A DNA stretch of 64,000 bases, from the NCBI RefSeq assembly GCF_028201475.1, contig NZ_CP116383.1, forward strand, positions 62,001 through 126,000. The letters are read 5' to 3'. The notes below the pieces were generated by a model, which saw nothing but the letters and a program-made list of their open reading frames with translations, was not told the DNA's origin and made no database searches. The number at the start of each line of letters is the position of its first letter. The stretch's first letter is position 1. The stretch comes from Vibrio sp. SCSIO 43137 (GTDB lineage: Bacteria; Pseudomonadota; Gammaproteobacteria; Enterobacterales; Vibrionaceae). Made by a program: the position numbers and the translations under genes. Below, in pieces: positions 11,448 through 64,000 of the stretch.

Positions 11448-11472
11448 TCCGGTTTAGCTTCGGCTACAAAAT

Positions 11473-12413: not shown

Positions 12414-13074
12414 GTTCAGACCACATAACAGCAAAAGCAGCAAGGGGTTTACCCTGATAGAGGTGCTGGTGGCCATTGCCATCTTTGCTACGCTCAGTGT
12501 TTCTGCCTATCAGGTACTGAATCAGGTGCAGCGTAGTAATGCTCAGTCGATTGAGAAAACAGGCCGGTTAAAGGATATCCAGCGAGCTATGGTGATTATC
12601 GACAACGATTTTCGCCAGATGGCACTCAGACAGTTCAGGACCAATGGCGATGAACCGTCTGAAAAGATAATCGAGTGGGGTCAGGGGCTGTTAGAGTCTG
12701 ACAACAACGCCGTGCTATTTGTCCGGCTGGGATGGCTGAATCCACAGCAGATGTTCCCCCGCGGAGAAGTTTCAAAGGTGGGTTACCGGGTGGTTGCCGA
12801 TCGACTGGAAAGAGTATGGTGGCGCTATCCGGATACCCCTGTAGGGCAGCAAGGCATAGTAACGCCCCTGCTTGATGGCGTGACGAATATAGAGATGCGC
12901 TTTTACTCAGCCGGCAACTGGCTAGAGCGCTGGGATCAGCCACTGGCGCTACCGGAAGCGGTCGCTTTTTCTATCGAGTTGCAAGATTACGGCAAGATAG
13001 AGCGGGTATATCTGACGGCCGGTGAGAAGTTGCAGAAAGATAACGGGGAGGGTAGCAGCGATGAAGCAAGCTAA
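12400..13074 (+). CDS. gspJ: type II secretion minor pseudopilin GspJ
   Basis: GspJ is a tip-complex minor pseudopilin. The leader is somewhat long (16 residues) and ends in SSKG|FTLIEVLVAIAI, with the +5 Glu present. At 224 residues it is typical of the family. Its 3' end overlaps the start of gspK by 14 bases, as is usual for this tightly packed operon. Confidence 0.94.
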   Translation: MWRNKFRPHNSKSSKGFTLIEVLVAIAIFATLSVSAYQVLNQVQRSNAQSIEKTGRLKDIQRAMVIIDNDFRQMALRQFRTNGDEPSEKIIEWGQGLLESDNNAVLFVRLGWLNPQQMFPRGEVSKVGYRVVADRLERVWWRYPDTPVGQQGIVTPLLDGVTNIEMRFYSAGNWLERWDQPLALPEAVAFSIELQDYGKIERVYLTAGEKLQKDNGEGSSDEAS

Positions 13075-15272: not shown

Positions 15273-15763
15273 ACGGATTAATGAGTTCACTCTCTTCTTG
15301 GTGGAACGGTTTGTTGCTTCGTGAGCAGCGTTTACTCTCCGTTGGGGGCTTGCTGCTGTTAGTCGCTGCGGTTTTTTGGGGAGTTATTCAGCCAGTCGCA
15401 GATAGAGCAGAGAAAGCTCAGACAAAGATTAACAGCGAAAAACAGCTGCTCAGCTGGGTAAGCAATAAAGCCGATGAGATTATAGAACTGCGGGGCAGTA
15501 GCGGTCGTTCAGTGTCAGAACGCCCTATGAATCAGGTCGTGTCCGGTTCTGTGAGTCGTTTTAATATTGAGCTGATCCGTATGCAGCCGAGAGACGATAT
15601 GCTTCAGGTCTGGATCAAGCCTGTTGCCTTTAACCAGTTTGTTTCGTGGCTTAACTTTTTAAATCAGGATCAAGGCATCCGGGTTGAGTTTATGGATATT
15701 TCAAAGGCTGACAGTAAAGGTGTGGTTGAGATTAAGCGCCTGCAACTTAAGCGGGGCAGCTAA
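15269..15763 (+). CDS. gspM: type II secretion inner-membrane protein GspM
   Basis: GspM is a small bitopic partner of GspL in the inner-membrane platform. The 164-residue protein has a short cytoplasmic N-terminus, a membrane segment at about residues 22-42 (LLSVGGLLLLVAAVFWGVI) and a periplasmic domain. The ATGA overlap with gspL implies coupled translation. Confidence 0.93.
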   Translation: MNGLMSSLSSWWNGLLLREQRLLSVGGLLLLVAAVFWGVIQPVADRAEKAQTKINSEKQLLSWVSNKADEIIELRGSSGRSVSERPMNQVVSGSVSRFNIELIRMQPRDDMLQVWIKPVAFNQFVSWLNFLNQDQGIRVEFMDISKADSKGVVEIKRLQLKRGS

Positions 15764-15764
15764 T

Positions 15765-16529
15765 ATGAAGAGAATCATATTTTTTTCTCTGCTGGTCATT
15801 CTGGTGTTTTGCACCAGCCTTGTTGTGCATCTTCCACTCTCTTTTGCCGTTAAATATATGCCTGAGGTAAGAGGGTTACAGCTAAGTGGGCTGAATGGCA
15901 CGCTTTGGCAGGGTAGTGCAAAAACCGTTAAATGGAATAACAGAAACTTTGGTCAGCTTAACTGGGATTTTCAGCCGGCAAGCTTGTTTAGCGGCAAAGC
16001 GCAGTTTGCTGTCCGTTTTGGCCGTGACAGCGATTTGAATCTAAGTGGTAAAGGTATTGTCGGGGCAGATTTTTCCGGCCTGTATGCCGAAAATGTATTT
16101 GCATCATTACCGGCAAGTTCTGTTCAGAGTCAGGTACAAATTCCTGTTCCGGTTACTGCGACGGGTCAGCTTGAACTATCAGTTAGCGAGTACCGTTTTG
16201 CACAGCCATGGTGTGAATCAGCCACAGGTAGTCTGGTATGGAATGCAAGTGAAGTTCAATCACCACTTGGTACTTTAAGCCCGGGAACCATTATTGCGGA
16301 TATTTCCTGTAAAGACAGCGTATTATCTGCTTCTTCGGCTCATGAACATCCACAACTTAGCGGGGCTTTTACTGCCAGCCTTGATTCGCGCAGACAATAT
16401 AAGGTGGATGCCTGGTTTAAGCCAAACAGTGAGTTTCCTCAGGCAATGACTTCACAACTAAAATGGCTTGGAAATCCTGATTCTCAGGGAAGGTATCCAT
16501 TCCTTTTCTCTGGTGGCCTGAGATATTAA
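15765..16529 (+). CDS. gspN: type II secretion protein GspN
   Basis: GspN is an inner-membrane accessory protein found in many, but not all, type II systems. An N-terminal hydrophobic segment spans about residues 3-23 and is followed by a periplasmic, beta-rich domain. The ATG at 15765 begins one base after the gspM stop and gives 254 residues; a longer in-frame opening at 15684 would run deep into gspM. It is the last gene of the operon. No gspO, gspS or gspAB is present here, so prepilin peptidase must be encoded elsewhere. Confidence 0.92.
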   Translation: MKRIIFFSLLVILVFCTSLVVHLPLSFAVKYMPEVRGLQLSGLNGTLWQGSAKTVKWNNRNFGQLNWDFQPASLFSGKAQFAVRFGRDSDLNLSGKGIVGADFSGLYAENVFASLPASSVQSQVQIPVPVTATGQLELSVSEYRFAQPWCESATGSLVWNASEVQSPLGTLSPGTIIADISCKDSVLSASSAHEHPQLSGAFTASLDSRRQYKVDAWFKPNSEFPQAMTSQLKWLGNPDSQGRYPFLFSGGLRY

Positions 16530-50295: not shown

Positions 50296-50504
50296 AGTTG
50301 GGCTATCATCTATATTAACAATATTTTGATTATGAATGTAATTTTAGTTGATTACTAGTCAAAGCTCTGGGTTAAGAAGATGCGATCTGGGAATTAATTC
50401 TGGGAAGTTATTTGCTCGTATAATGAGAAGATTTATTGGGTTATGCTTTTACCTCTGAGTACCTTAGTTTAAAATCTAACAAACACTTAATTAAACATAT
50501 CATT

Positions 50505-51695
50505 ATGAATGCATACTTACCGTTAATCGGACGAACTCAGGCTTTGTTTGATAAAGATATTTCAAGTCATCGTCAGGAGCTTTCTGATGTTGTTTCACAG
50601 TCCCGCTTCCTTGTTCTGGGAGGTGCTGGCTCAATCGGTCAGGCTGTGACCAAAGAGATCTTCAAAAGAAACCCTAAAAAGCTTCATGTTGTTGATATTA
50701 GTGAAAACAACATGGTTGAGCTGGTGAGAGATATCCGTAGCTCATTTGGTTATATTGATGGTGATTTTCAGACTTTTGCCCTTGATATTGGTTCGGTTGA
50801 ATATGATGCATTTATTAAAGCGGATGGTCAGTTTGACTATGTGCTGAACTTATCTGCACTGAAGCACGTTCGTAGTGAGAAAGATCCGTATACTTTAATG
50901 CGTATGATTGATGTCAATGTGTTTAATACGGATAAAACCATTCAGCAATCTATTGATGCCGGAGTGAAAAAATACTTCTGTGTTTCCACAGATAAGGCTG
51001 CAAACCCTGTAAATATGATGGGGGCATCAAAGCGTATTATGGAGATGTTCTTAATGCGCAAGAGTGAACAGATCAGCATCTCGACCGCTCGTTTTGCAAA
51101 TGTTGCTTTCTCAGACGGTTCTTTGCTGCACGGATTCAATCAACGTCTGCAAAAAAATCAGCCAATAGTCGCTCCGAATGATATTAAGCGTTATTTTGTA
51201 ACCCCTCAGGAATCGGGAGAACTGTGCCTGATGTCTTGTATCTTTGGTGAAAACAGAGATATCTTCTTTCCTAAACTGAGTGAAGCTCTTCACCTGATTT
51301 CATTTGCTGATATTGCCGTGAAATATCTTAAGCAACGCGGTTATGAACCTTATCTTTGCCAGACAGAAGATGAGGCTCGTCAGTTAGCTCATACATTGCC
51401 GGAGCAGGGTAAGTGGCCTTGTCTGTTTACCTCCAGCGATACAACCGGTGAAAAAGATTTTGAAGAATTTTTTACTGAAAGTGAAACTCTGGATATGAAC
51501 CGGTTTGAGAATCTGGGCATTATCAAGAATGAGCCCCTATATCAGCAGGAGCTGTTAATACTTTTTGAGCAGACTATTTCTGAGATGAAGCACAACAGAG
51601 AGTGGAGTAAAGAGCAGATCGTTAAGCTATTCTTTACCATGATACCGGACTTTGGACACAAAGAGACGGGTAAATATCTTGATAGCAAGATGTAA
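50505..51695 (+). CDS. legB: nucleotide-sugar 4,6-dehydratase, LegB-like
   Basis: LegB converts GDP-GlcNAc to the 4-keto-6-deoxy sugar, starting legionaminic acid synthesis. The 396-residue SDR protein has the NAD loop LGGAGSIGQ near residue 41, STDKAANPVNMMGASKR with the catalytic Lys, and a C-terminal extension shared by LegB proteins. The ATG at 50505 gives MNAYLPLIGRTQ, the family start; a TTG at 50436 is in frame. No strong ribosome site is seen. It heads the nonulosonate operon. Confidence 0.85.
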   Translation: MNAYLPLIGRTQALFDKDISSHRQELSDVVSQSRFLVLGGAGSIGQAVTKEIFKRNPKKLHVVDISENNMVELVRDIRSSFGYIDGDFQTFALDIGSVEYDAFIKADGQFDYVLNLSALKHVRSEKDPYTLMRMIDVNVFNTDKTIQQSIDAGVKKYFCVSTDKAANPVNMMGASKRIMEMFLMRKSEQISISTARFANVAFSDGSLLHGFNQRLQKNQPIVAPNDIKRYFVTPQESGELCLMSCIFGENRDIFFPKLSEALHLISFADIAVKYLKQRGYEPYLCQTEDEARQLAHTLPEQGKWPCLFTSSDTTGEKDFEEFFTESETLDMNRFENLGIIKNEPLYQQELLILFEQTISEMKHNREWSKEQIVKLFFTMIPDFGHKETGKYLDSKM

Positions 51696-51710: not shown

Positions 51711-52862
51711 GTGAACCCTAATCATTTAAATGAGTTCGTTCGTGATATCTATAAAACGAAGGACTTTATTCCTCTGCATGCTCCTAAGTTTGACGGTAAT
51801 GAAAAAGCCTATGTAACGGAAACTATAGACAGTACTTTTGTTTCAAGTGTAGGTAAATTTGTTGATGAGTTTGAGCACAGAATAGAAGCCTTTACCGGTA
51901 GTAAAAAAGCCGTTGCAACAGTGAATGGAACGGCGGCTCTTCATGCTGCACTCTATCTGGCTGGTGTTAAGCCGGGAGATCTGGTTATTACACAAGCTCT
52001 TACTTTTGTTGCCACCTGTAATGCCCTTTATCATATGGGGGCTGAACCGTTATTTATTGATATCTCTCCGGTGAGTCTGGGCCTTTGCCCCAAAGCGGTT
52101 GATGGTTATCTGGAGGAGAATGCTCAGTTAACGAATGACGGCTGTATTCATAAAGTGACTAAGCAGCGAATAAAAGCAGTTGTGCCAATGCATACCTTTG
52201 GCCACCCTGTTGAGTTGGATGAGTTAGTTGCAGTTTGTCGAAAGTGGCAGATAACTCTGGTAGAAGATGCAGCTGAGAGCCTTGGTTCTTTCTATAAGGG
52301 AAAACATACTGGCACGCTGGGTGATTTTTCCGCTATTAGTTTTAATGGCAATAAAATTATTACCACCGGTGGTGGCGGTATGGTTCTTTGCCGTGACGCA
52401 GAGCTGGGTAAAAGAGCGAAACATATCACCACAACGGCCAAGGTTCCTCATCCGTTTGAGTTTTATCATGATGAAGCGGGTTTCAACTATCGTATGCCTA
52501 ACCTGAATGCCGCTTTAGGTTGTGCCCAGATGGAAACACTAGATTTGTATCTGCAGCAAAAAAGAGTGCTGGCGTTACGCTACCAGATTTTCTTCGCTGA
52601 TTCCGAGTTCCATTTTGTAACTGAACCGGAATATGCCAAATCAAACTATTGGTTGAATGCTGTGATATGTCCTGACAGCCAAAGTAGGGATGCCTTGCTA
52701 GAACAAACTAATGATGCAGGAGTTATGACACGCCCAATCTGGAAATTGATGCATCGTTTACCAATGTTTAAAGAGTGTCTGAGAGGAGACTTAGCCCAAT
52801 CAGAGATTATTGAGTCCCGGCTGGTCAATATTCCAAGTTCACCAGTGCAAATTACAGAGTAA
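51711..52862 (+). CDS. legC: DegT-family aminotransferase, LegC-like
   Basis: LegC transfers an amino group from glutamate to C4 of the keto sugar made by LegB. The 383-residue PLP enzyme has VNGTAALHAALYLAGV, the Asp of VEDAAESLGSFY, and the Schiff-base Lys in SFNGNKIITTGGGGM near residue 214. It starts at GTG, with GGAG ten bases upstream and 15 bases after legB. Neighbouring genes make legionaminic acid more likely than other 4-amino sugars. Confidence 0.9.
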   Translation: MNPNHLNEFVRDIYKTKDFIPLHAPKFDGNEKAYVTETIDSTFVSSVGKFVDEFEHRIEAFTGSKKAVATVNGTAALHAALYLAGVKPGDLVITQALTFVATCNALYHMGAEPLFIDISPVSLGLCPKAVDGYLEENAQLTNDGCIHKVTKQRIKAVVPMHTFGHPVELDELVAVCRKWQITLVEDAAESLGSFYKGKHTGTLGDFSAISFNGNKIITTGGGGMVLCRDAELGKRAKHITTTAKVPHPFEFYHDEAGFNYRMPNLNAALGCAQMETLDLYLQQKRVLALRYQIFFADSEFHFVTEPEYAKSNYWLNAVICPDSQSRDALLEQTNDAGVMTRPIWKLMHRLPMFKECLRGDLAQSEIIESRLVNIPSSPVQITE

Positions 52863-52876
52863 GCAAAGGTCTGTTT

Positions 52877-54031
52877 ATGGGAAAGAAAGTTACTGTTTTT
52901 ACCGGTACCAGAGCAGAGTATGGTCTGCTCTATTGGTTGATCAAAGATATTCAGGATGATCCTGAACTTGATTTGCAGTTACTGGTGTCCGGAACCCACC
53001 TCTCACCGGAGTTTGGTGAAACTTATAAGCAGATAGAGCAGGACGGTTTTGTCATTGATGAGAAGGTAGAAATATTACTTTCTTCTGATAGCTCAACAGG
53101 CACAGCAAAAAGTATGGGGTTAGGGGTTATTGGTTTTGCTGATGCCTTAGCTCGCTTGCAATCTGACTTGCTTATTATTTTAGGTGATAGATTTGAAGCA
53201 CTGGCTGTAGCTCAAACCGCAATGATTATGCGTATTCCGATATTTCATCTTCATGGCGGTGAGATAACCGAGGGTGCGTATGATGATGCTATACGGCACG
53301 CCATTACAAAACTGAGTTACTGGCATGGAACATCGACAGAAGAGTACCGAAAGCGGGTTATTCAGCTCGGAGAGTCTCCTGAAAGAGTAAAGAATGTTGG
53401 TGCTATTGGACTGGATCATTTGAAACGAGCACAGTTTATGTCTCTCGAAGCTCTTTCAGACTCTTTAAGTTTCTCTCTTGAAAAACCTTATTTTGTTGTT
53501 ACTTATCATCCCGTCACTCTAGGCGAAGAGCCTCCTGTAGAAAGTTTTCAGGCTCTTTTATCCGCACTGGATGAGTTTTCTGATCATCAGGTAATTTTGA
53601 CCTATCCAAATGCTGATGATGGTGGACGGCAGATTATTCCCCTGCTAGAGAAGTATGCTCAGGATAATCCTTCTCGTGTGCTTGCGATTCCTTCGTTAGG
53701 GCAGGTTAGATATCTGAGCGCAGTTAAATATGCTGCCGCAGTTATCGGTAATTCATCCAGTGGTATTATCGAGGTGCCTTCATTTGATGTTCCAACGGTT
53801 AACATTGGTGTGCGACAAAAAGGAAGGCTGGCTGCAAAGAGTGTTATTGATTCTGAAGCAGATTTTCATTCGATTAAAGAGGCGATTAACTGCGCCGTTA
53901 AGGGACTTTACCGAAGAGATAAACAACCTATTTTTAACCCGTATGGGGCTGGCGACACGAGTTCTCAGGTGATTGACGCGATGAAGTCAACGGTAACCGG
54001 AACCTGTAAGTCATTCTATGATTTAAAGTGA
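52877..54031 (+). CDS. legG: hydrolysing nucleotide-sugar 2-epimerase, LegG/NeuC-like
   Basis: LegG cuts the nucleotide from the 2,4-diacetamido sugar and inverts C2, giving the six-carbon precursor for the nonulosonate synthase. The 384-residue GT-B-like protein has TGTRAEYGLLYWLI, GDRFEALAVAQTA, HLHGGEITEGAYDD and IGNSSSGIIEVPSF, all typical of the UDP/GDP-sugar hydrolysing epimerases. It lies 14 bases after legC. Confidence 0.9.
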   Translation: MGKKVTVFTGTRAEYGLLYWLIKDIQDDPELDLQLLVSGTHLSPEFGETYKQIEQDGFVIDEKVEILLSSDSSTGTAKSMGLGVIGFADALARLQSDLLIILGDRFEALAVAQTAMIMRIPIFHLHGGEITEGAYDDAIRHAITKLSYWHGTSTEEYRKRVIQLGESPERVKNVGAIGLDHLKRAQFMSLEALSDSLSFSLEKPYFVVTYHPVTLGEEPPVESFQALLSALDEFSDHQVILTYPNADDGGRQIIPLLEKYAQDNPSRVLAIPSLGQVRYLSAVKYAAAVIGNSSSGIIEVPSFDVPTVNIGVRQKGRLAAKSVIDSEADFHSIKEAINCAVKGLYRRDKQPIFNPYGAGDTSSQVIDAMKSTVTGTCKSFYDLK

Positions 54032-54038: not shown

Positions 54039-55109
54039 ATGACTCTTATAATTGCGGAAGCGGGTGTAAACCATAATGGTGATGAAAAGCTCGCTTTTGA
54101 CTTGATTGACGCGGCTCATCAGGCTGGAGCTGATATTGTTAAGTTTCAGACTTTTAAAGCAAAAAACTTAGTAACAGAGGAAGCCAAACAAGCTGACTAT
54201 CAGGTCGCAAACACAAACAAGCAAGAATCGCAGTTAGCTATGTTACAGCGGCTTGAACTCTCATATGATGCTCACCATAAGATGATTGAACGATGTCAGT
54301 CCTTAGGGATAGAGTTTTTATCTACAGCATTTGACTTTGAAAGCCTTGAGTTTTTGGTTGAAGAGTTGGCTCTGAAGAGGCTTAAACTGCCTTCCGGAGA
54401 GCTGACTAATGCGCCGCTGGTTCTTGAGCATGCTAAAACAGGATGCGATTTAATTGTCTCTACGGGTATGGCTACTCTGGCAGAAATAGAAATGGCATTG
54501 TCTATTATTGCTTTTGGCTATTTAGGAAGTAGTGAAGAGCCTACAACGGAAGCTTTCCAAACTGCATATGCTTCAGCGGAAGGTCAGAGGCTTCTTAAAC
54601 AAAAAGTTACTATCTTGCATTGTACTACTGAGTATCCTGCCCCTATGGAAGAGATTAACCTTCGGGCAATGGATACCCTTGGAAATGCATTTGAACTGAC
54701 GGCGGGTTATTCAGATCATAGTGAAGGAATCACTATACCTATTGCAGCGGTTGCAAGAGGGGCTAAGCTGATCGAAAAACATTTCACACTTGATAAAAAT
54801 ATGGAAGGACCTGACCACAAAGCTTCTCTGGAACCCCATGAGCTTAGTGCTATGGTTAGTGCTATCAGGCAGGTGGAGGTGGCCCTGGGTTCTAGCGTAA
54901 AGACACCAACAGTGTCAGAAATTAAGAATAAACTGGTGGCACGTAAAAGCTTAGTTGCAAACAAGGCTATCAGGGCAGGCGAAGAGTTCAGTGAAGACAA
55001 CTTAACGATAAAAAGACCTGGTAGCGGTATGTCTCCACATCTTTACTGGAAACTGTTGGGCAGAACGGCGAAAAGCGACTATCAGTCGGGAGATTTGATC
55101 CTTGAATAG
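54039..55109 (+). CDS. legI: N,N'-diacetyllegionaminate synthase, NeuB family
   Basis: LegI condenses the 2,4-diacetamido-trideoxymannose with phosphoenolpyruvate to form the nine-carbon legionaminic acid. The 356-residue protein has a TIM-barrel NeuB domain (IAEAGVNHNGD at the start, GYSDHSEGI, HFTLDKNMEGPDHKASL) and a C-terminal antifreeze-like SAF domain. Sequence alone does not fully separate legionaminic from neuraminic acid synthases; the neighbours do. Confidence 0.92.
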   Translation: MTLIIAEAGVNHNGDEKLAFDLIDAAHQAGADIVKFQTFKAKNLVTEEAKQADYQVANTNKQESQLAMLQRLELSYDAHHKMIERCQSLGIEFLSTAFDFESLEFLVEELALKRLKLPSGELTNAPLVLEHAKTGCDLIVSTGMATLAEIEMALSIIAFGYLGSSEEPTTEAFQTAYASAEGQRLLKQKVTILHCTTEYPAPMEEINLRAMDTLGNAFELTAGYSDHSEGITIPIAAVARGAKLIEKHFTLDKNMEGPDHKASLEPHELSAMVSAIRQVEVALGSSVKTPTVSEIKNKLVARKSLVANKAIRAGEEFSEDNLTIKRPGSGMSPHLYWKLLGRTAKSDYQSGDLILE

Positions 55110-55746
55110 TCAAATGGAAAAGCCTCTGGTTATTATCGGTGGCGGCGGCCATGCAAGTGTGTTGGTTGATGTTTTGCTTAGACAGAACCGTCAGATTTTA
55201 GCGATTATTAGTCCTGAATCTGTTCAGGAGCGCCCAGTGTTTTCTGGTATCAGGCATTTGAAAGATGATCAGGATATTTCAGAGTTTGCCTCTGATGAGG
55301 TTCTGTTGGTAAATGGTATCGGAGTGCTGCCCGGATCTGGTGTAAGAAGAAAGGTAAGTGAGCATTTCCTCAGCTTAGGTTACCGGTTTGAAACAGTGAT
55401 AGCTGATGACGCAATAGTGTCGCCTTTTGCCTTAGTTCATGAGGGTGCACAGGTATTCTCAGGTGCAGTTGTTCAGACCGGAGCAGTGGTTGGCACCAAC
55501 AGTATTATAAATACCAATGCAGTAATAGAACATGATTCTGTTGTTGGCGAGTACAGTCACATTGCACCAAATGCGACTTTATGTGGACAAGTATGCTGTC
55601 AACAAGACGTATTTGTAGGTGCCGGAGCGACGGTTGTTCAGGGTCTTACTCTGGAAAATCAGAGCATTGTGGGGGCCGGCGCTGCATTAACTCAAGATCT
55701 TGCTGCGGGCAAAGTCTGTTATTCAGAGCGTAGTTTAATTAAATAA
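55102..55746 (+). CDS. legH: sugar N-acetyltransferase, LegH/NeuD/PglD-like
   Basis: LegH acetylates the 4-amino group before the epimerase step. The 214-residue protein has a Rossmann-like start (VIIGGGGHASVLVDVLL) and left-handed beta-helix hexapeptide repeats from about residue 100, with the catalytic His segment NAVIEHDSVVGEYSHIAP. It starts at TTG, nine bases after GGGAG and overlapping legI by eight bases; an ATG four codons later lacks a ribosome site. Confidence 0.85.
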   Translation: MNSQMEKPLVIIGGGGHASVLVDVLLRQNRQILAIISPESVQERPVFSGIRHLKDDQDISEFASDEVLLVNGIGVLPGSGVRRKVSEHFLSLGYRFETVIADDAIVSPFALVHEGAQVFSGAVVQTGAVVGTNSIINTNAVIEHDSVVGEYSHIAPNATLCGQVCCQQDVFVGAGATVVQGLTLENQSIVGAGAALTQDLAAGKVCYSERSLIK

Positions 55747-55755: not shown

Positions 55756-56814
55756 ATGAGTCATTGTTGGAACAATATACTAATTAAGCCCGAAGATACT
55801 ATACGGGATGCTCTGGAAATCATTAACAATGAAGCATTGCGTCTCGCTATGGTAGTCAATGAACAAGAAGAGTTAATGGGGGTTGTCACTGACGGAGATA
55901 TCCGGCGTGGGTTACTTAATAACCTGACATTGGGTTCTGAAATTACATTGGTAATGAACCCTACTCCCGTAACGGCAGAGACAACCTATTCCCGGGAAGA
56001 GCTCGTGGAATTGATGGAAAGTAATGGAATATTATCCGTTCCTATCTTAAAAGAGAAAAAGGTTGTCGGATTAGAAACATTACACGGTATAGGTAGCAAG
56101 ACAAAATATAAAAACCCAGTCTTTATTATGGCTGGAGGGTTTGGAACACGCTTGCGACCTCTGACGGATACATGCCCTAAGCCGATGCTGAAGATTGGCG
56201 GGAAACCTATGCTGGAGACAGTCATTCGTAGCTTTATTAAAGCTGGGTTTAGCAACTTCTATATCTCTACACACTATATGCCTGAGCAAATTCAGGATTA
56301 CTTTGGTGATGGTTCTTCTTTAGAGGTTAGTATTAGCTATGTTTATGAAGACACGCCTTTGGGCACAGGTGGTGCATTAGGATTATTGCCTGATGATCTT
56401 CCGGAGGGCTTGCCTCTAATCATGATGAATGGCGATATTCTTACTAAAGTCGATTTTAAACGCTTACTTGAGTTCCACCTTGACAATGATGCTGATGCTA
56501 CAATGTGTGTAAGGGAGTATGACTATCAGATTCCTTACGGTGTCATTAATGGCGAAGGCAATAAAATTACCAGTATGGTGGAGAAGCCTATTCAGCGCTT
56601 TTTTGTCAATGCAGGCATCTATGTAGTTTCTCCGGAAGTTATTCAATCAGTACCAAGAAATCACGCTATCGATATGCCTACCTTACTTGAACAACATATG
56701 GAAAAACGAGAGAAAGTACTGATGTTCCCTATACATGAGTACTGGTTGGATATTGGCAGAATGGATGACTTTAATCGTGCTCAGACTGATATTCATACAC
56801 TGGAGTTGATTTGA
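55756..56814 (+). CDS. ptmE: CBS-domain sugar-1-phosphate nucleotidyltransferase, PtmE-like
   Basis: PtmE-type enzymes join glucosamine-1-phosphate to GTP, giving GDP-GlcN for the legionaminic acid route. The 352-residue protein has two CBS domains (residues 1 to about 118) and an NTP-transferase domain starting MAGGFGTRLRPLTDTCPKPM, then MNGDILTKV and the ending HEYWLDIGRMDDF. This CBS-plus-transferase layout is the PtmE hallmark. GTP specificity is by analogy with Campylobacter. Confidence 0.85.
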   Translation: MSHCWNNILIKPEDTIRDALEIINNEALRLAMVVNEQEELMGVVTDGDIRRGLLNNLTLGSEITLVMNPTPVTAETTYSREELVELMESNGILSVPILKEKKVVGLETLHGIGSKTKYKNPVFIMAGGFGTRLRPLTDTCPKPMLKIGGKPMLETVIRSFIKAGFSNFYISTHYMPEQIQDYFGDGSSLEVSISYVYEDTPLGTGGALGLLPDDLPEGLPLIMMNGDILTKVDFKRLLEFHLDNDADATMCVREYDYQIPYGVINGEGNKITSMVEKPIQRFFVNAGIYVVSPEVIQSVPRNHAIDMPTLLEQHMEKREKVLMFPIHEYWLDIGRMDDFNRAQTDIHTLELI

Positions 56815-57794
56815 TGAAGAAAGTTGCGGTTATCGGGCTTGGTAATATTGCAACCCGACACAGGCGGAACCTGAAGCAACTGTTTCCAGAGGCAACATTG
56901 TTTGCTATGTCAGCAAGTGGCAGAGTGCCAAATGAGACAGTTGAGAACTGCGATATTGTAGCAACAAGTATTGAAGAGCTGATTGATAAAGAAGTTGAAC
57001 TGGTTATCGTCGCCTCTCCGGCAACCTTTCATGCCAGACATGCGGTTCCTTTGATAGAGGCAGGTATTCCGACGTTAATTGAGAAGCCTGTTACTGCAGA
57101 TAATAAAGATTCGAAAATCCTGTCTGATACGGTCAGTAAACACTCTACGCCTGTTGCGATAGGTTACTGCCTCAGATATTTACCTTCAGCGAAAGTTGTT
57201 AAGTCTGTATTGGACGAAAATAAGCTGGGTTGTTTATATAACTCTTTCGTACATATCGGGCAGTATCTGCCTGATTGGAGACCATCCAAAGACTACCGGA
57301 GTAGTGTATCAGCGAATGCTGAACTAGGAGGAGGAGCTCTGTTAGAGTTAAGTCATGAGGTGGACTACTCCCGCTGGTTATTAGGCACCCTCAATTTGCA
57401 GCATGCATTACTTAGGTCTAGTGCCGAACTTGCCCTTGATGTAGAAGATATGGCTGATATAACCCTTACAGCAGAAGACGGCTCTGTTGTTCAGCTTCAT
57501 CTGGATTTTATGCAGAGAACAGCTAACCGACATTGTCGATTTATCGGTAGCCAAGGCTGTTTAGAATGGGATTTGATTCGGAATGAAGTTGCCTATGTCG
57601 CTGGTGGGGAAGAAAAGATCTTATATAGCGATCCCGAATGGGATAAAAACCAGATGTACCTGGAGATGATTAAGGACTTTTTACGTTTAATCCGGGGAGA
57701 AGACAATCAGTGTGTGTTGATAGATGATGCTGCTGAAACGGTTGCTTTGATTGAACAAGTTAAGCAGAAGTTTCCTAAAACGGATAAATACTAA
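56814..57794 (+). CDS. Gfo/Idh/MocA family oxidoreductase, PtmF-like
   Basis: The 326-residue NAD(P)-dependent dehydrogenase has an N-terminal Rossmann motif (VAVIGLGNIATRHRRNL) and the family's EKPVTADN loop near residue 95. It starts at ATG 56814, with GGAG eight bases upstream, overlapping the ptmE stop by one base. A protein of this type (PtmF) takes part in dedicated amino-sugar supply for legionaminic acid in Campylobacter; the exact reaction is less certain than for its neighbours. Confidence 0.75.
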   Translation: MKKVAVIGLGNIATRHRRNLKQLFPEATLFAMSASGRVPNETVENCDIVATSIEELIDKEVELVIVASPATFHARHAVPLIEAGIPTLIEKPVTADNKDSKILSDTVSKHSTPVAIGYCLRYLPSAKVVKSVLDENKLGCLYNSFVHIGQYLPDWRPSKDYRSSVSANAELGGGALLELSHEVDYSRWLLGTLNLQHALLRSSAELALDVEDMADITLTAEDGSVVQLHLDFMQRTANRHCRFIGSQGCLEWDLIRNEVAYVAGGEEKILYSDPEWDKNQMYLEMIKDFLRLIRGEDNQCVLIDDAAETVALIEQVKQKFPKTDKY

Positions 57795-57796
57795 AT

Positions 57797-58486
57797 ATGA
57801 AAAACTTTGCCTTTATTTTTGCACGGGGAGGCTCAAAAGGGCTGCCGGGTAAAAACATTAAACCTCTTGCCGGAAAGCCGCTTTTGGCTTATTCGATTGA
57901 AACTGCTACCTCTTGTCCATCAGTTGATGAGGTGTTTGTTTCTACTGATGATACAGAAATTGCTGAAGTAGCCCTAAAGTACGGAGCCATTGTTATCCAT
58001 CGCCCTCAGGAGCTGGCAAGCGATACTAGTCCGGAATGGTTATCCTGGCGGCATGCTACTGAATGGGTGACAGAGAAATATGGAGCATTTGAAGGATTTG
58101 TAAGCTTACCGGCAACCAGTCCTTTACGTAGCGTTGAAGATGTAGAAAGTGCTTTGTTAAAGCGAAGAGAACAAGGTGCTGATATCTGTATCTCTGTAAC
58201 ACCAGCCAGCCGAAGCCCGTATTTCAACATGGTTAAATATGATCAGAATGGTTTTATAGTGCTGGTTAACTCTCCTAAAACTGATGTGACGCGACGGCAG
58301 GATGCTCCTGAAGTCTTTGATATTACTACCGTAGTCTATGCGACAACACCCGACTTCGTGATGAACAATTATGGTATTTTTTCCGGCAAAGTAACCAGTG
58401 TTGAGGTACCTAAACACAGAGCAGTAGATATAGATGATATCTACGATTTTAAGTTTGCAGAAGTATTACTTCAGGATGCCCGATGA
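57797..58486 (+). CDS. legF: CMP-legionaminate synthetase, LegF/PtmB-like
   Basis: LegF activates the nonulosonate with CTP to form the CMP-sugar donor. The 229-residue protein has the CMP-sialate synthetase signature ARGGSKGLPGKNIKPLAGKP near residue 9, then LPATSPLRSVEDV and RRQDAPEVFD. It overlaps the next gene by four bases (ATGA). Confidence 0.9.
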   Translation: MKNFAFIFARGGSKGLPGKNIKPLAGKPLLAYSIETATSCPSVDEVFVSTDDTEIAEVALKYGAIVIHRPQELASDTSPEWLSWRHATEWVTEKYGAFEGFVSLPATSPLRSVEDVESALLKRREQGADICISVTPASRSPYFNMVKYDQNGFIVLVNSPKTDVTRRQDAPEVFDITTVVYATTPDFVMNNYGIFSGKVTSVEVPKHRAVDIDDIYDFKFAEVLLQDAR

Positions 58487-59253
58487 AAGATTTATTAGAG
58501 GATAAAAAAATTGTAATAGCCGGAGCTGGAGGGCTGCTTGGAGCTCGTTTGGTTTCTGCTGCTCTTAAGCAAAAAGCAACGGTTATAGCCGCGGATATTA
58601 ACCCTACATTGATGCAAGAACGGCTGAAGGCGTTAGGTGTTGATTTGAGTGACAATCAACTTGTCATTGAAGAGCTTGATGTAACAAGTGAAGAGAGCGT
58701 AAAGCAGTTCTTTACTAAACATGACAGCTTAGATGGGGCTGTTAATGCAACTTACCCAAGAAATAAGAAGTACGGCGCCCATTTTTTTGATGTGACGCTA
58801 GAGAGTTTTAATGAAAACTTATCGTTACATCTGGGAAGTGCTTTTCTGTTTACTCAGCAGTGTGCAGCGAGTTTTAAACAGACACCATCACCTTTTTCCC
58901 TGGTAAACATATCTTCAATATATGGTGTGGTAGCACCGAAATTTGATATTTATGATAACACTCCAATGACAATGCCGGTTGAATATGCAGCCATAAAATC
59001 TGCCATTATTCATTTAAACAAGTACGCAGCAGCCTACGTAAACGATAGCCGGTTTAGGGTGAATTGTGTTAGCCCCGGTGGGATATTCGATTTTCAGCCA
59101 GATGACTTCCTGAAGGCCTATAAAAAGAATACCCATGGCGAGGGTATGCTGGATGTAGAAGAGGTTATTGGCTCAGTACTCTTTCTTCTCTCAGAGCAAT
59201 CTAAATATGTCACTGGTCAAAACATCATTGTGGATGATGGGTTTAGCTTGTGA
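58483..59253 (+). CDS. ptmA: short-chain dehydrogenase/reductase, PtmA-like
   Basis: The 256-residue SDR protein has a GAGGLLGARL nucleotide loop near residue 14, an NISSIYG catalytic Ser segment, YAAIKS as the YxxxK motif near residue 167, and VNCVSPGG. PtmA proteins are regular members of legionaminic acid clusters, thought to act in the amino-sugar supply with PtmF. It closes the nonulosonate operon; a 136-base gap follows. Confidence 0.8.
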   Translation: MKDLLEDKKIVIAGAGGLLGARLVSAALKQKATVIAADINPTLMQERLKALGVDLSDNQLVIEELDVTSEESVKQFFTKHDSLDGAVNATYPRNKKYGAHFFDVTLESFNENLSLHLGSAFLFTQQCAASFKQTPSPFSLVNISSIYGVVAPKFDIYDNTPMTMPVEYAAIKSAIIHLNKYAAAYVNDSRFRVNCVSPGGIFDFQPDDFLKAYKKNTHGEGMLDVEEVIGSVLFLLSEQSKYVTGQNIIVDDGFSL

Positions 59254-59279
59254 GGAACGGTTTTATTGGTTAACTTTTT

Positions 59280-59308
59280 TTTATTGAGTGGCCGTGATCT
59301 GGTATATT
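59280..59308 (+). promoter_or_regulatory. possible promoter before the ACP-LuxEC operon
   Basis: TATATT at 59303-59308 is preceded by TTTATT at a 17-base spacing, a weak sigma-70 match, in the only sizeable gap in this part of the locus. Independent transcription of the downstream genes is possible but unproven. Confidence 0.3.
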
Positions 59309-59389
59309 CCTTGCCTTTCGTGATGATTGAATAGTACTTAATGTTAGTAACACTTAAGATACGAACTAGAGTTTAGTGGAGATAACTAT

Positions 59390-59623
59390 ATGAAAACAAA
59401 AGCTGCGGTTAAAGCACTAATTGCTGATATTTTGAAAGTATCTGTTGAAAAAATTGATGATGAACTTGCGATTGGTGATATACCAGAATGGGATTCTTTA
59501 GCACATATGAGAATTATTGCAGCGTTAGAGTCTGAGTTAGGTGTGGTTTTGGATATTGAGCAAACATTAGAAATTGAAGATGTTGAAGATATTGTTGATG
59601 CAGTAATGAGTACTGAATCATAG
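59390..59623 (+). CDS. dedicated acyl carrier protein
   Basis: The 77-residue acidic four-helix protein has the phosphopantetheine attachment motif EWDSLAHM, with the modified Ser at residue 36. It is too different from the fatty-acid AcpP (no DSLDTVE) to be the housekeeping carrier. The next gene is an acyl ligase that could load it, and two further genes act on acyl groups, so it is likely a private carrier for this pathway. GGAG precedes the start. Confidence 0.88.
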   Translation: MKTKAAVKALIADILKVSVEKIDDELAIGDIPEWDSLAHMRIIAALESELGVVLDIEQTLEIEDVEDIVDAVMSTES

Positions 59624-59630
59624 GCTTATT

Positions 59631-61070
59631 ATGTCAATATTTACGAAACTAGTTTTCCACTCAAAGATCCAAGGCCAAAAAACCGCTGTGATCGATAATG
59701 GAGATGAGTATTCTTATTCTCGGTTAGTTGAGGATATAGGAAAAACTGCTTTAAAATTAAAAGAGTTAAACGTTCAGCCCAGGGATCGTGTTTTAGTTAC
59801 TTCTAGTAATGACTATGCATTTGTAGTTACTTACTTCGCTGTAAGCTCTGTTGAAGCAATATTTGTAAATTTGGCACAAGATGTAAGTGCTGAGCATAAG
59901 CAATATGTCCGTGATAAGTCTCAACCTATTATTCAGATAGATAGTTGCAAAGAGTTTCTGGAAGAGGTCTCAACCACTGTTAGCATAGATGAGCAAATAG
60001 AACTAGAGGTAGATGACTCGGATGTTGCGGAGTTAGTATTTACTAGTGGAACCACGGGAGAGCCTAAAGGTGTATCGCTAACCAACGGACAAATTGAGAA
60101 GGCAACACGACATATTGTAGAGCAGGTTAAAAATACCAGTGAAGATGTTGAACTTCTATTAATGCCTCTAAGTCATTCTTTTGGAATGGGACGACTAAGA
60201 AGTGTTCTATATGTTGGTAGTACATTAGTTATTGGTTACCCGTTGCAGAGGTTAAAAAGGGTCTTTCAAGCTATAGAACGCTACCATGTAACAGGGTTGG
60301 GGCTGGTCCCCTCTGCCTGGTCTTTCATTACCAGTGTATCTAAAAACTTAATTACCAAGTTTGCTGACCAGATTAGATATATTGAGTTTGGGAGTGCTTA
60401 CTTATCTATAGAAAACAAAAGATTACTTACTGATTGGTTCCCGAAGACCCATATTGTAATGCATTATGGACTTACAGAAGTTTCTAGAGCTCTTTTTATT
60501 CACTTCCATACAGATAACCTTGAATCTATTGGCCGCTTATCTCGCGGGGCTGATGTAAAAGTATTATCTGAGAATGGGCGGTTTGCTAAAGAGGGTGAGG
60601 TAGGCGAGATAGTACTTAAGTCCACCTGGATGATGTCTGCTTATTACCAAAATAATAGCTTAACTAATAGTAGCTTTGTTGATGGCTATTTTCGGACAGG
60701 AGACTTAGGGCGATTAAAAGGTGAGTATTTATTTCTCGAAGGTCGATTAAAAGAGATTATTAATGTCGGAGGGAAAAAAGTCAGCCCTTATCAAGTGGAA
60801 GAGACTCTACTTAAGAGCCCTTATGTTAAAGAATGTGCATGTGTTGCTCTGCCTGACTTACTTATGGGAGAAGTTGTACAGGCATTCATAGTTTTAGATA
60901 GCACCGCAGAAAGTTCAATAGAGCAAGCTATAGAATCTCTAAAAGAGCTTGTTGCAGAGCTTTTACCTGTGCATATGCGTCCACAAAAATATCAGCCAGT
61001 AGCTAATCTGCCCAAAACTTCATCGGGAAAAATCCAGCGATTAAAGCTATTGACTAAAGAGGTTTACTGA
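59631..61070 (+). CDS. AMP-forming acyl ligase (acyl-ACP/CoA synthetase-like)
   Basis: The 479-residue ANL-superfamily enzyme has the phosphate loop LVFTSGTTGEPKGVSLTN near residue 135, MHYGLTEVSR, DGYFRTGDLGRLKGEYLF and the C-terminal catalytic Lys in PKTSSGKIQRLK. It should activate a carboxylic acid with ATP and hand it to CoA or, given the gene seven bases upstream, to the carrier protein. At under 500 residues it is shorter than long-chain acyl-CoA synthetases. Substrate unknown. Confidence 0.85.
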   Translation: MSIFTKLVFHSKIQGQKTAVIDNGDEYSYSRLVEDIGKTALKLKELNVQPRDRVLVTSSNDYAFVVTYFAVSSVEAIFVNLAQDVSAEHKQYVRDKSQPIIQIDSCKEFLEEVSTTVSIDEQIELEVDDSDVAELVFTSGTTGEPKGVSLTNGQIEKATRHIVEQVKNTSEDVELLLMPLSHSFGMGRLRSVLYVGSTLVIGYPLQRLKRVFQAIERYHVTGLGLVPSAWSFITSVSKNLITKFADQIRYIEFGSAYLSIENKRLLTDWFPKTHIVMHYGLTEVSRALFIHFHTDNLESIGRLSRGADVKVLSENGRFAKEGEVGEIVLKSTWMMSAYYQNNSLTNSSFVDGYFRTGDLGRLKGEYLFLEGRLKEIINVGGKKVSPYQVEETLLKSPYVKECACVALPDLLMGEVVQAFIVLDSTAESSIEQAIESLKELVAELLPVHMRPQKYQPVANLPKTSSGKIQRLKLLTKEVY

Positions 61071-61071
61071 A

Positions 61072-62199
61072 ATGTTAAAGCTTAGGTTTCCATTGCCTGT
61101 ATTTCGAAGTGCAAAAGAGATAGTGAATGGTCAAAATGCAAGAATGGCACTTAAAGGGTTGGTCGCGAATAGAGTCGCTCTCATTGTTAGTTCTGCTTTT
61201 AAGCGTTCTAGTTATTGTGAACAACTGGAAAGATTGATTAATGCCGATAGCGTTTTATTGATTGAAAAATCATGGGATGGAGAACCTTCGGTTGAAAGCT
61301 TATCTGGCGTGCTATGTAAGCTGGAAAAGTTCCAACCAGACTATATATTAGCATTAGGTGGCGGTTCCGTAATTGATGGTGCAAAACTAGCGTGGCTATT
61401 GTATGAACATCCAACATTGAGCAACGAACAGTTATTTAGACCGTTCTCTTTGCCATCTCTGAGAGGCAAAGCAAAGTTTGCTGCAATTCCTACGACCGTT
61501 GGGGCTGGTTCAGAAGTTTCTTCGGCGGCGGTTATGTTAGATACAAGCTCTTCCAGTAAAAAAGCAGTAGTAACGCATGAGTTTATTCCAGACTTAGTCA
61601 TTTTGGATCCGGAACTAGTACAGGAAGTCTCTCACAACATATTAAAAACTACAGTTGCAGATGCTCTCTCTCATGCAGTAGAGGGTTATGTCTCACAAAT
61701 AAATCACCCATTGATGGATAGCTTTGCTGAAAAAGCAGTCGAAATTGTAGCCAGTTATATTGACTGCTTTGATGATGAGTCATGGGATTTAGCTATGATT
61801 GCAGACTTGCAATATGCATCTATGCTGGCTGGGTGGGTACAAAACCACAAAATAGTAGGCTTATCTCACGCGATTGCTCATCAACTTGGAAGCTTGGAAA
61901 TTGGGCATGGCTTAGCTAACGGTTTGTTAATGCCTGAAGTTATTAGCTTCAATGCTGGAAAAGATAAAGAAACAGCCAAGAAATACCAAAAATTGTGTAG
62001 TAAAGCATCTATAGAAAACGTATCTCAGCTTAGAGATATTTTTAAGAAGTTAACTAAGGGGCAGTATGATTCTAAATGCTTAAGTGAGGCAGATTTAGAA
62101 CGTATTGCAACTGGAGCACTGCTTGACCCTGCTGCAAAGTCTAATCCTGTTACATTTAGTGAAATAGATGTCAAAGAGATTGTTATCAAATGCCTATAA
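61072..62199 (+). CDS. iron-containing alcohol dehydrogenase
   Basis: The 375-residue protein belongs to the group III metal-dependent alcohol dehydrogenases. It has the NAD site ALGGGSVIDGAK near residue 97, TTVGAGSEVS, and metal ligands in DALSHAVEGY, GLSHAIAHQ and IGHGLANGLLMP. It likely reduces an aldehyde (or oxidises an alcohol) linked to the following LuxC-type reductase. It begins one base after the ligase stop and overlaps the next gene by ten bases. Confidence 0.9.
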   Translation: MLKLRFPLPVFRSAKEIVNGQNARMALKGLVANRVALIVSSAFKRSSYCEQLERLINADSVLLIEKSWDGEPSVESLSGVLCKLEKFQPDYILALGGGSVIDGAKLAWLLYEHPTLSNEQLFRPFSLPSLRGKAKFAAIPTTVGAGSEVSSAAVMLDTSSSSKKAVVTHEFIPDLVILDPELVQEVSHNILKTTVADALSHAVEGYVSQINHPLMDSFAEKAVEIVASYIDCFDDESWDLAMIADLQYASMLAGWVQNHKIVGLSHAIAHQLGSLEIGHGLANGLLMPEVISFNAGKDKETAKKYQKLCSKASIENVSQLRDIFKKLTKGQYDSKCLSEADLERIATGALLDPAAKSNPVTFSEIDVKEIVIKCL

Positions 62200-64000
62200 A
62201 AAGTGATTCAGAGCAAGAACTATTATCGGTTTTGGATGCTCGTCCATATCAACTATCTGATAAGCAAAAGTCAAAGTTGTTTAAGTCTAACTTACTTAAA
62301 GAGTTAAATCATCATTATAAAAATAATGAGTTATATAGAAAATTCTGCAAGAAACATCTATTTGAACCGGCTACCTTTTCTGGTGAACTTACTGATATTC
62401 CTGCTATCCCTGTACATATATTTAAAGCTTTAGGACACAAGTTATCTTCGGTTAGCCCTGAGTTAATCAAAACTACATTACAGTCTTCTGCAACGAGTGG
62501 AGTCCCTAGTACCGTTCTTTTAGACAAGATTACATCTCGGCGACAAATTAAAGCTATGGCGAGAGTGCTGCAAGAAGTATTAGGGTCAAAACGTCGCCCG
62601 TTTTGTGTCATGGATATAGATCCAGCAAGCCCTAATGCGGTTAATTTAGGCGCTAGAATTGCGGCAGTGAAAGGTTACTTAAATTTTGCCTCATCCTCTG
62701 ACTATTTTATAGATGCTAATAGCCCAACGGCTCCATTAGAGTTTTTGCAGCAAAAATTCATAGAGTATTTGGAAAATCTAAAGTCAGATGAGCCAGTGGT
62801 TATATTTGGCTTTACTTTTGTTTTGTACCATTCAGTTTTCAAAGTACTAAAAGAGCGGAATATAAGTTTTCAGCTTCCTATTGGTTCTCAAGTTATCCAT
62901 ATAGGAGGATGGAAAAAACTAGAGTCTGAAAAAGTCAGTAAAGAAATTTTTAATAGTGATATTGCCGGGGTACTTGGTATTCCAGCGGAAAATGTTATTG
63001 ATATTTATGGCTTTACTGAACAGATGGGGCTTAATTACCCAGATTGTAAAGCTGGCTGGAAGCATGTTCATGCTTATTCAGATGTAATTATTCGAGATGA
63101 AAGCGATCTCAGTGTCTGTCCTAATGGTCAGAGTGGACTGTTAGAGTTTATTAGTCCATTGCAACACTCCTACCCTGGTAACGTTGTTCTTACAGATGAT
63201 TTAGGCGTAATTGAAGAAGGTCAATGCAACTGCGGTAGAAAAGGAAAGCGCTTTAAAGTCATTGGGCGAGCTAAAAAAGCTGAAGTCCGTGGTTGTGGTG
63301 ATGTAATGTCGGAAAAAGTTAGTTCAGTTAGCAATAAACGCAAGCTGAGTGAAACTGAGAGTATGATAATTTATCATTCGCCCATTGATGTTGATTATAG
63401 CTTGCATCCTACGGAACAACTGAAGCAAATTTTTGCGGCTCTAGAACAGAAAAAGAACTGGCTGTCGGAGCAGCCATTAGAAGCCTTAATAGGGCTAATT
63501 GACACTGCAAGGGAGCGTTGGGCTGATGACACTGCATTGGATAGCTTTCGAAGCAATGGATTAAACTTCTTAATAGAGTGGAGTGAGCCTTCTCGACTGA
63601 AAGCGTTGTTAGATAGTTCATTACATGGGCGTCGTGGGCATTTAGATTCTTTTTTGCCTAGAAAAGATATTAGCAGTAGCTCCCTTAAAGCATTACCAAG
63701 AGGTACAGTTGCACACTGGTTATCGGGAAATGTTCCTCTACTGGGCATGTTTGCGCTTATACAAAGCATTGTGTGCAAGAACACTAATATTCTTAAAGTT
63801 TCTGCTGATGAGTCTCAAGCGTTACCAGCTCTCCTTAAGACTTTTAAAGATATAAGCTATACGTCTCCTGGTGGCTATACTATTTTTGGCAATGATCTCC
63901 TTGAATCAATAGCTGTTGTGTATTTCGACCGTCATCAAATAAAAACTGCTGAGTGTTTTTCTGGGCATGCCGATGTCAGAATTGCGTGGGGCGGACGTGA
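62190..64000 (+). CDS. LuxE-LuxC fusion: acyl-protein synthetase/acyl reductase, 3' end outside window
   Basis: One frame stays open from the ATG at 62190 to base 64000 (603 residues so far). Residues 1 to about 380 resemble LuxE: QSSATSGVPST near residue 95, DIYGFTEQMG near 273, and Cys369 in EVRGCGDV, where LuxE carries its acylated cysteine. From about residue 395 it resembles LuxC: LPRGTVAHWLSGNVPLLGMF near residue 502, CKNTNILKVS, and RIAWGGR at the edge. The predicted job is to activate an acyl group and reduce it to an aldehyde. The LuxC catalytic Cys lies beyond the window. Confidence 0.8.
   Translation, partial: MPIKSDSEQELLSVLDARPYQLSDKQKSKLFKSNLLKELNHHYKNNELYRKFCKKHLFEPATFSGELTDIPAIPVHIFKALGHKLSSVSPELIKTTLQSSATSGVPSTVLLDKITSRRQIKAMARVLQEVLGSKRRPFCVMDIDPASPNAVNLGARIAAVKGYLNFASSSDYFIDANSPTAPLEFLQQKFIEYLENLKSDEPVVIFGFTFVLYHSVFKVLKERNISFQLPIGSQVIHIGGWKKLESEKVSKEIFNSDIAGVLGIPAENVIDIYGFTEQMGLNYPDCKAGWKHVHAYSDVIIRDESDLSVCPNGQSGLLEFISPLQHSYPGNVVLTDDLGVIEEGQCNCGRKGKRFKVIGRAKKAEVRGCGDVMSEKVSSVSNKRKLSETESMIIYHSPIDVDYSLHPTEQLKQIFAALEQKKNWLSEQPLEALIGLIDTARERWADDTALDSFRSNGLNFLIEWSEPSRLKALLDSSLHGRRGHLDSFLPRKDISSSSLKALPRGTVAHWLSGNVPLLGMFALIQSIVCKNTNILKVSADESQALPALLKTFKDISYTSPGGYTIFGNDLLESIAVVYFDRHQIKTAECFSGHADVRIAWGGR

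Follow-up and report, generated by a model that had tools for sequence, protein, structure and literature searches.

What might four consecutive genes for an acyl carrier protein (ACP), an ANL ligase, an iron-type alcohol dehydrogenase (Fe-ADH) and a LuxE-LuxC protein be making directly behind a legionaminic acid operon? The question is posed by the end of a 64,000-nucleotide stretch of Vibrio sp. SCSIO 43137 (hereafter the window), which spans bases 62001-126000 of a 3.37-Mb contig (NZ_CP116383.1) in a 4.94-Mb genome of two contigs that is 99.98% complete. The original prediction, made from the letters of the window, had envisaged a linear route from acid to acyl-ACP, acyl-enzyme, aldehyde and alcohol with an unknown product, and had mentioned an N-acyl substituent of the nonulosonate as a possibility. 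Judged by its gene content, the cassette does not represent a new pathway; its make-up is that of the RfbK-RfbL-RfbM-RfbN set of Vibrio cholerae O1, for which a chemistry has already been proposed. We propose that the cassette probably reduces a dicarboxylic acid and so produces a short hydroxyacyl-ACP, from which the acyl group would be moved to a surface amino sugar.

The predicted identities of the four genes were borne out by the open reading frames (ORFs), the Pfam families and the catalytic motifs. The ACP and ligase genes are separated by 7 bp and the ligase and Fe-ADH genes by 1 bp, and the Fe-ADH gene overlaps the LuxE-LuxC gene by 10 bp. The ACP carries its phosphopantetheine serine, Ser36, within a DSL motif and matches PF00550 above the cut-off, the marks of a dedicated carrier, and it is one of two PP-binding proteins found in its own genome. 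The ANL motifs are present in the ligase. The Fe-ADH, for which relatives with solved structures were found, holds the pattern D197/H201/H266/H279, which we take to be the metal ligands. In the full genome LuxE-LuxC is a single 827-aa ORF (L002:4191-6674, equivalent to window 62190-64673), with the LuxE residue Cys369 (codon 63294-63296) inside the window and the LuxC residue Cys662 beyond its end. Both were aligned with the cysteines of the solved LuxE and LuxC (PDB 7xc6), and the catalytic cysteine is kept in 37/37 other LuxE and 37/37 other LuxC sequences. LuxE occurs once in the genome, and the predicted absence of luxAB holds for the genome at its 99.98% completeness, with no Bac_luciferase (PF00296) match at E<=0.001. 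A promoter and terminator scan of 59150-59450 gave nothing above chance. Extension past 64000, one of the checks proposed at the outset, places the end of the fusion at 64673, where genes for GNAT2, predicted to be a tandem-GNAT transferase, and for a NodB-type polysaccharide deacetylase follow; these two proteins probably deliver the acyl group.

The 3-deoxy-L-glycero-tetronate pathway of V. cholerae O1, with RfbK-L-M-N(-RfbO) in the wbe/rfb region, was reportedly laid out by Morona et al. in 1995; the place of RfbK in this set is our assumption. In the published work, RfbL (VC0249) is given the role of a 2,4-dihydroxybutanoic acid ligase that has RfbK as its carrier, with reference to Morona et al. 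(PMC12208996), and WbeL is a 471-aa protein tied to tetronate, deletion of wbeL abolishing the O1 antigen (PMC3441752). In a protein search the cassette ligase was 50% identical over 99% to P0152, a V. cholerae AMP-binding protein of 471 aa, which we take to be RfbL/WbeL because it has the same length as the published WbeL. A tree of 39 ligases places the window ligase in a group of nine (94/97), together with five other cassette ligases, P0152, one V. vulnificus ligase and a protein named rfbL from a metagenome-assembled genome; its bootstrap is not fully settled, two rows (L124 and L102) are very long branches, and the tree does not include the LuxE-fused ligases of L084 and L095, the ligase of L145 or any that were split or short. 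Ligases outside this group are 20-29% identical to that of the window. RfbM- and RfbN-type genes were recognized from their Pfam families and from their order in comparison to VC0249-VC0251 (PMC9201469). An unnamed protein, P0012 (825 aa, 176 members), is possibly the V. cholerae RfbN and was not used as such.

We compared the neighborhoods of 45 loci, 37 of them with LuxE and LuxC (38 units, two in L090) and eight with a lone, more distant LuxE. The four cassette genes are kept in order at all six loci that carry a close fusion, the other fusions being 72-76% identical to that of the window; they are thus not grouped by chance, and the search for the same gene set elsewhere that had been proposed as a check came out in its favor. 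GNAT2, the deacetylase and leg genes are also present at five of the six, namely in V. fortis (L004), Agarivorans (L005), Vibrio sp. 99-8-1, genome G348 and the window. The L004 and L005 cassettes are 95.7% identical in DNA, and the ACP of L069, missed by the ORF caller, was found by tblastn (80% identity). The sixth, in Marinomonas polaris (L006), lies between an FdtA gene and genes for a hexapeptide transferase and a DegT aminotransferase, beside rml-type genes, in an operon of the dTDP-aminosugar type; GNAT2 and the deacetylase have no match in the 22 kb of this locus. A scan of genome contigs by short exact peptide patterns gave four loci. Distant blastn with window 60000-63998 gave no match among 20,395 E. 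coli records; on plasmids 81 records match, all at less than 60% identity. The parts of the cassette are also arranged in other ways: two loci of the ACP-SDR-LuxE-LuxC kind (SDR, short-chain dehydrogenase), L084 and L095, have ligase and LuxE in one ORF of 877 or 935 aa, and in L090 a 19-kb stretch contains a pair of LuxE-LuxC units, of which one is fused and lacks an Fe-ADH.

The Fe-ADH accompanies all six close fusions and none of the 31 other LuxE-LuxC loci. At 24 of these 31 an SDR gene lies on the same strand within 8 kb, and at the remaining seven none was found by tblastn or by a profile that, having been built from weak SDR matches of the same loci, is a general SDR detector. None of the six close-fusion loci has an SDR between ACP and LuxE; in four of them an SDR gene is found at a distance of four or five genes upstream, in the position of the leg-operon SDR. 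It is possible that the two unrelated reductases carry out the same aldehyde reduction; their mutual exclusion is suggestive only, as the six Fe-ADH loci are close kin and not six independent events.

How would these proteins work together? From gene content and order, motifs, the ligase clade, the neighborhoods and the genome searches we infer five reaction steps and, along with them, the acceptor and a C4 substrate. The LuxE domain would adenylate one carboxylate group of a C4 dicarboxylic acid, for which malate is the most likely candidate, and bind the acid as a thioester on Cys369; the acyl group would be passed to Cys662 of LuxC and reduced with NADPH to the semialdehyde, which the Fe-ADH would turn into 2,4-dihydroxybutyrate (3-deoxy-L-glycero-tetronate). 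The ANL ligase would charge the cassette ACP with this acid, and GNAT2 would transfer the acyl group to an amino group freed of acetate by the adjoining deacetylase, with N-dihydroxybutyryl legionaminic acid for the surface polysaccharide as the outcome. That the acid is 2,4-dihydroxybutyrate has, in our judgment, an even chance or slightly better, and the combination of malate as substrate with legionaminic acid as acceptor is somewhat less likely than not.

LuxE proteins hand an adenylated acid on as a thioester. Adenylation of acids by LuxE has been described (PMC4772473), and because LuxE, fused here to LuxC, activates the acid itself, a ligase and an ACP would be redundant ahead of the reduction. 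Once the reduction is complete they are needed, since the product is again an acid when a dicarboxylate loses one carboxylate to an alcohol, as in the candidate conversions of malate to 2,4-dihydroxybutyrate and of succinate to 4-hydroxybutyrate. Reduction followed by loading is therefore the order we favor: every gene would be used once, and the V. cholerae product would be obtained. The sequence of steps first predicted for the cassette is probably not the right one. Nor does the pathway have to be regarded as unknown, given the make-up shared with V. cholerae O1 and, more loosely, with the ACP-SDR-ligase-LuxE-LuxC sets of Aeromonas and enterobacterial flagellin islands.

No Pfam family (E<=1) and no NCBIfam family matches GNAT2 itself. 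Its predicted structure (predicted local distance difference test, pLDDT, 91.8) matches tandem-GNAT N-acyltransferases over the full length, glucosamine N-acetyltransferase among them, and in its relative P0284 two Pfam GNAT domains were matched; the model thus predicts the two GNAT domains in one chain that characterize tandem GNAT N-acyltransferases. The deacetylase carries TFDD, HGYDH and CYPYG segments in a motif scan. A carrier gene is present at 12 of 13 strong GNAT2 loci, with differing acyl-making modules, and the thirteenth contig ends within the ligase; this frequency contrasts with the two PP-binding proteins in the entire genome analyzed here. A deacetylase accompanies GNAT2 at 11 of the 13 loci. 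When V. fortis is compared with Agarivorans, GNAT2 has been exchanged, with cassette and deacetylase 94-96% identical. In L125 (9649-10723) the GNAT2 homologue of G371 is split across two reading frames.

Two other kinds of acyl-making module were noted. At L126:9692-13040 and L127:6905-10259, inside nonulosonate clusters, an FkbH-domain protein, an ACP, a glyoxalase-fold protein (Pfam-checked in L126) and GNAT2 stand in a row, which suggests glyceryl-type acyl loading for the GNAT2 family. At L070:5842-15965, and also in L072 and L073, a second kind of LuxE-LuxC module includes a thiamine-diphosphate enzyme together with a further NeuB-like protein, a protein of FabA-like type and an ACP-like gene of its own; the L070 module also has a metallo-beta-lactamase-fold protein and sits inside a leg cluster. 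We tentatively envisage a mix-and-match N-acylation system at surface-glycan loci, in which GNAT2, mostly beside a deacetylase that would clear the amino group, would take acyl groups from a private carrier and decorate nonulosonic acids with them. Interchangeable cassettes would supply the carrier, whether through reduction of malate or succinate by LuxE-LuxC, the thiamine-enzyme/NeuB-like/FabA-like set, ligase plus SDR, or FkbH-type loading.

We lean towards legionaminic acid or a precursor of it as the acceptor, so that the N-acyl nonulosonate once listed as one possibility is now favored by the whole-genome data. Legionaminic acid bears two N-acyl groups. A search of the genome for DegT (PF01041) sugar aminotransferases found LegC as the sole full-length match (288 bits, ahead of a partial match at 34 bits), which favors a dihydroxybutyryl group on legionaminic acid, and in G348 LegC is likewise the only full-length DegT match. 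A NeuB-type gene lies in the stretches read at nine of the 12 carrier-bearing GNAT2 loci, and at seven of these (L002, L004, L005, L007, L069, L070, L123) leg-operon genes are in the same cluster. Perosamine was considered as the acceptor and rejected, as no perosamine-type aminotransferase was found and the gene after gmd is a second member of the GDP_Man_Dehyd/epimerase family. Among the open-access matches listed there was no published report of legionaminic acid with a 2,4-dihydroxybutyryl group. The excerpted text of a paper on Vibrionaceae nonulosonates has no mention of LuxE, acyl-CoA, tetron or RfbN (PMC7371886), and that of a paper on Shewanella flagellin none of LuxE or acyl-CoA (PMC3765264); for the legionaminic flagellin of Plesiomonas, glycans of 316 and 358 Da are given, with no 'lux' in the excerpt (PMC4481668).

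Several points weigh against this assignment. At L124, L125 and L128 no NeuB was found in the stretch examined, and the carriers of L070, L124 and L128 were identified by a weak match, or by their length and a DSL/DSV motif, not by Pfam. Weak GNAT2 matches (20-39 bits) occur in G199, G531 and G632, with no carrier in the stretches read of G199 and G531. Other sugar aminotransferases are present in five of the seven GNAT2 genomes checked, with two full-length DegT matches each in G338, G456 and G412, three (plus one split) in G402 and four in G629. LegH presumably acetylates, so that acylation requires a deacetylase acting on legionaminic acid, which is a guess, and the substrate of the deacetylase could be another N-acetylhexosamine. 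GNAT2 could use coenzyme A (CoA). Moreover, the homologies to RfbK, RfbM and RfbN, three of the four proteins, are drawn from family and gene order, the direct sequence match being that of the ligase. The same enzymes would also fit 4-hydroxybutyrate from succinate.

Could the acyl group be made as proposed and be placed elsewhere, for example on glucosamine freed by the deacetylase from a glycan containing N-acetylglucosamine (GlcNAc), or on a hydroxyl group? The nearest NCBIfam relative of the deacetylase is the poly-GlcNAc deacetylase PgaB (74.6 bits, below the cut-off), the GNAT2 fold resembles glucosamine N-acetyltransferase, among others, and the three of 12 loci without NeuB nearby point the same way. 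The nonulosonate genes at the other nine argue against it, and we regard such an acceptor as somewhat unlikely.

The same cassette could also act on succinate, the resulting 4-hydroxybutyrate being attached to the ACP and then transferred to an amino sugar. The enzyme logic would be the same, and marine Pseudoalteromonas is known to contain 3,6-dideoxy-3-(4-hydroxybutyramido)-D-galactose (PMC3210612); the M. polaris cassette, among its FdtA, hexapeptide transferase and DegT genes, is placed as expected for a 4-hydroxybutyramido sugar. A model for 4-hydroxybutyrate dehydrogenase is among the 16 families that match the Fe-ADH, but its 122.5 bits fall far short of the cut-off of 500, and several of the other families have higher scores. 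We consider succinate unlikely, since V. cholerae RfbL, which falls within the ligase clade, is described as an enzyme for the 2,4-dihydroxy acid.

The linear route, ending in an alcohol, perhaps a fatty alcohol for a lipid, would draw on the long-chain acyl groups on which LuxC and LuxE of luminous bacteria act, and on the ability of LuxC to take thioesters. Although the flagellin-island papers mention a possible liposugar (PMC7874193, PMC4875605), we find this route quite improbable in view of the redundant ligase and ACP, of the C4 hydroxy acid that the V. cholerae O1 set is described as serving (PMC12208996), and of an operon strand that by eye holds no ketosynthase or lipid acyltransferase, for which reason a fatty alcohol or wax ester was also rejected.

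The setting is that of a surface polysaccharide, as the original prediction had it. The nine-gene operon upstream is, by its family matches, of legionaminic type, with the LegC, NeuC, NeuB and NeuD models above cut-off and the cytidylyltransferase below that of PseF (Table 1). The LegB-type dehydratase has no NCBIfam model at E<=1e-30. LegB, PtmE, PtmF and LegF are names that we assume for the operon genes, and the order of nucleotidyltransferase, Gfo/Idh-type oxidoreductase, cytidylyltransferase and SDR presumably corresponds to ptmE-F-B-A of Campylobacter. After the deacetylase, convergent genes encode a weak glycosyltransferase-52 match, a hexapeptide transferase (the nearest such gene downstream, on the opposite strand at L002:9738-10457), WaaA, an O-antigen-ligase family protein and RfaD, the labels WaaA and RfaD being our assumption. 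The last three mark a lipopolysaccharide (LPS) or surface-polysaccharide locus, and a flagellin island was rejected on these grounds, without a search for flagellar genes. Farther on there are a Wzt-like ABC protein, gmd and the second GDP-mannose-dehydratase/epimerase-family gene. The same polysaccharide locus holds, by eye, several transposase genes and pieces resembling a gene for an MBOAT-type acyltransferase past the window (L130:3900-10300). Elsewhere, window 6223-16529 holds by eye an ordinary type II secretion-like operon (secretin, ATPase, pseudopilins).

Table 1. Genes of the legionaminic operon, the acyl cassette and the two genes behind it (window positions unless prefixed by L002)
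Feature	Position	Strand	Evidence and remarks
LegB-type NAD-dependent dehydratase, first operon gene	50436..51695 (ATG for comparisons ~50508)	+	ORF; orthologues adjoin leg genes in L005, L070, L145
LegC aminotransferase	51711..52862	+	TIGR04181 544.5 bits, cut-off 420
LegG, NeuC-type hydrolysing 2-epimerase	52877..54031	+	TIGR03568 473.2 bits, above cut-off
LegI, NeuB-type nonulosonate synthase	54039..55109	+	TIGR03569 501.2 bits, above cut-off
LegH, NeuD/PglB/VioB-type left-handed beta-helix sugar N-acetyltransferase	55102..55746	+	TIGR03570 185.7 bits, above cut-off
PtmE-like nucleotidyltransferase, N-terminal part matching CBS-bearing proteins	55756..56814	+	families below cut-offs
PtmF-like Gfo/Idh-type oxidoreductase	56811..57794	+	families below cut-offs
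LegF/PtmB-like CMP-nonulosonate cytidylyltransferase	57797..58486	+	PseF model 139.6 bits, below cut-off 205.7
PtmA-like SDR, last leg-operon gene	58483..59253	+	PRK09186 369.3 bits, above cut-off; FlagModPtmA 214.3, below 350 cut-off
RfbK-like ACP	59390..59623	+	77 aa; PP-binding 30.5 bits (Pfam, above cut-off)
RfbL-like ANL ligase, presumed hydroxyacyl-ACP synthetase	59631..61070	+	479 aa; AMP-binding 180.8, AMP-binding_C 60.2 bits
RfbM-like Fe-ADH	61072..62199	+	375 aa; Fe-ADH 107.9, ADH_Fe_C 94.9 bits
RfbN-like LuxE-LuxC fusion (acyl-protein synthetase + thioester reductase)	62190..64673 (window cut at 64000)	+	LuxE 559.8, LuxC 140.3 bits
GNAT2	L002:6697-7752	same strand as cassette	~350 aa; predicted tandem-GNAT transferase
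NodB-type polysaccharide deacetylase	L002:7745-8719	same strand as cassette	324 aa; PF01522

If the proposal is true, a little-tested suggestion for the cholera O1 side chain becomes a general, portable acyl-donor kit for varied amino sugars, with perosamine as partner in V. cholerae, a dTDP-amino sugar in Marinomonas and legionaminic acid here. A GNAT-fold family unstudied so far, GNAT2, would be named as a user of acyl carriers, and a directly testable surface-glycan mass would follow, along with an identity for an unexplained Aeromonas flagellin unit. The flagellin of A. piscicola AH-3 is described in the Aeromonas papers as bearing an unknown 102-Da unit, called a monosaccharide in PMC8625153, and a pseudaminic derivative of 376.14 Da. 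We calculate 102.032 for dihydroxybutyryl and 376.148 for a diacetyl nonulosonate with one acetyl group swapped for it, and in the mix-and-match scheme outlined above both Aeromonas units would contain dihydroxybutyryl. This assignment of the 102-Da unit is a lead only, as O-methylglyceryl has the same formula and none of the loci examined is shown to be from Aeromonas; among the open-access matches listed there was no published report of its identity.

What is new here in comparison to known systems is the delivery end, that is, the partner sugar and the transferase (GNAT2, deacetylase and legionaminic operon). A V. vulnificus table gives a NeuC-like protein, an acetyltransferase, a 77-aa ACP, RfbN and a polysaccharide deacetylase under neighboring gene numbers, in the excerpt without functional comment (PMC11264103). 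Both domains of the fusion align over most of their length with the fatty acid reductase of the lux operon (PDB 7xc6), catalytic cysteines included; unlike LuxC and LuxE of that operon, they are fused and accompanied by an ACP, a ligase and an Fe-ADH, in a genome in which no luciferase was found. GNAT2 shares the tandem-GNAT fold of its model with Eis, N-myristoyltransferase and the Clostridium glucosamine N-acetyltransferase, but at only 8-15% identity, and in contrast to them it is tied to carrier-protein genes.

The Aeromonas Group II islands (ACP, FabG-like protein, ligase, LuxE and LuxC; PMC7874193) and the enterobacterial flagellin islands share ACP, ligase, LuxE and LuxC adjoining nonulosonate genes with the window, but have a FabG-like SDR in place of the Fe-ADH, pseudaminic genes and flagellin as the target (PMC7874193, PMC4875605). 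In the window the 7 bp between ACP and ligase are too short for a gene, the Fe-ADH gene comes after that of the ligase and a single ORF encodes LuxE-LuxC, whereas at loci of the flagellin-island make-up LuxE and LuxC are mostly separate ORFs, and their LuxE and ligase are 32-39% and 20-29% identical to ours. An RfbO-type acyltransferase is not directly downstream of the cassette, where GNAT2 and the deacetylase lie, although no search with an RfbO sequence was made. The closest relative appears to be the V. cholerae O1 set, for which perosamine is the partner sugar in the literature; where that set is combined with perosamine and RfbO, the locus described here has GNAT2, a deacetylase and legionaminic genes instead.

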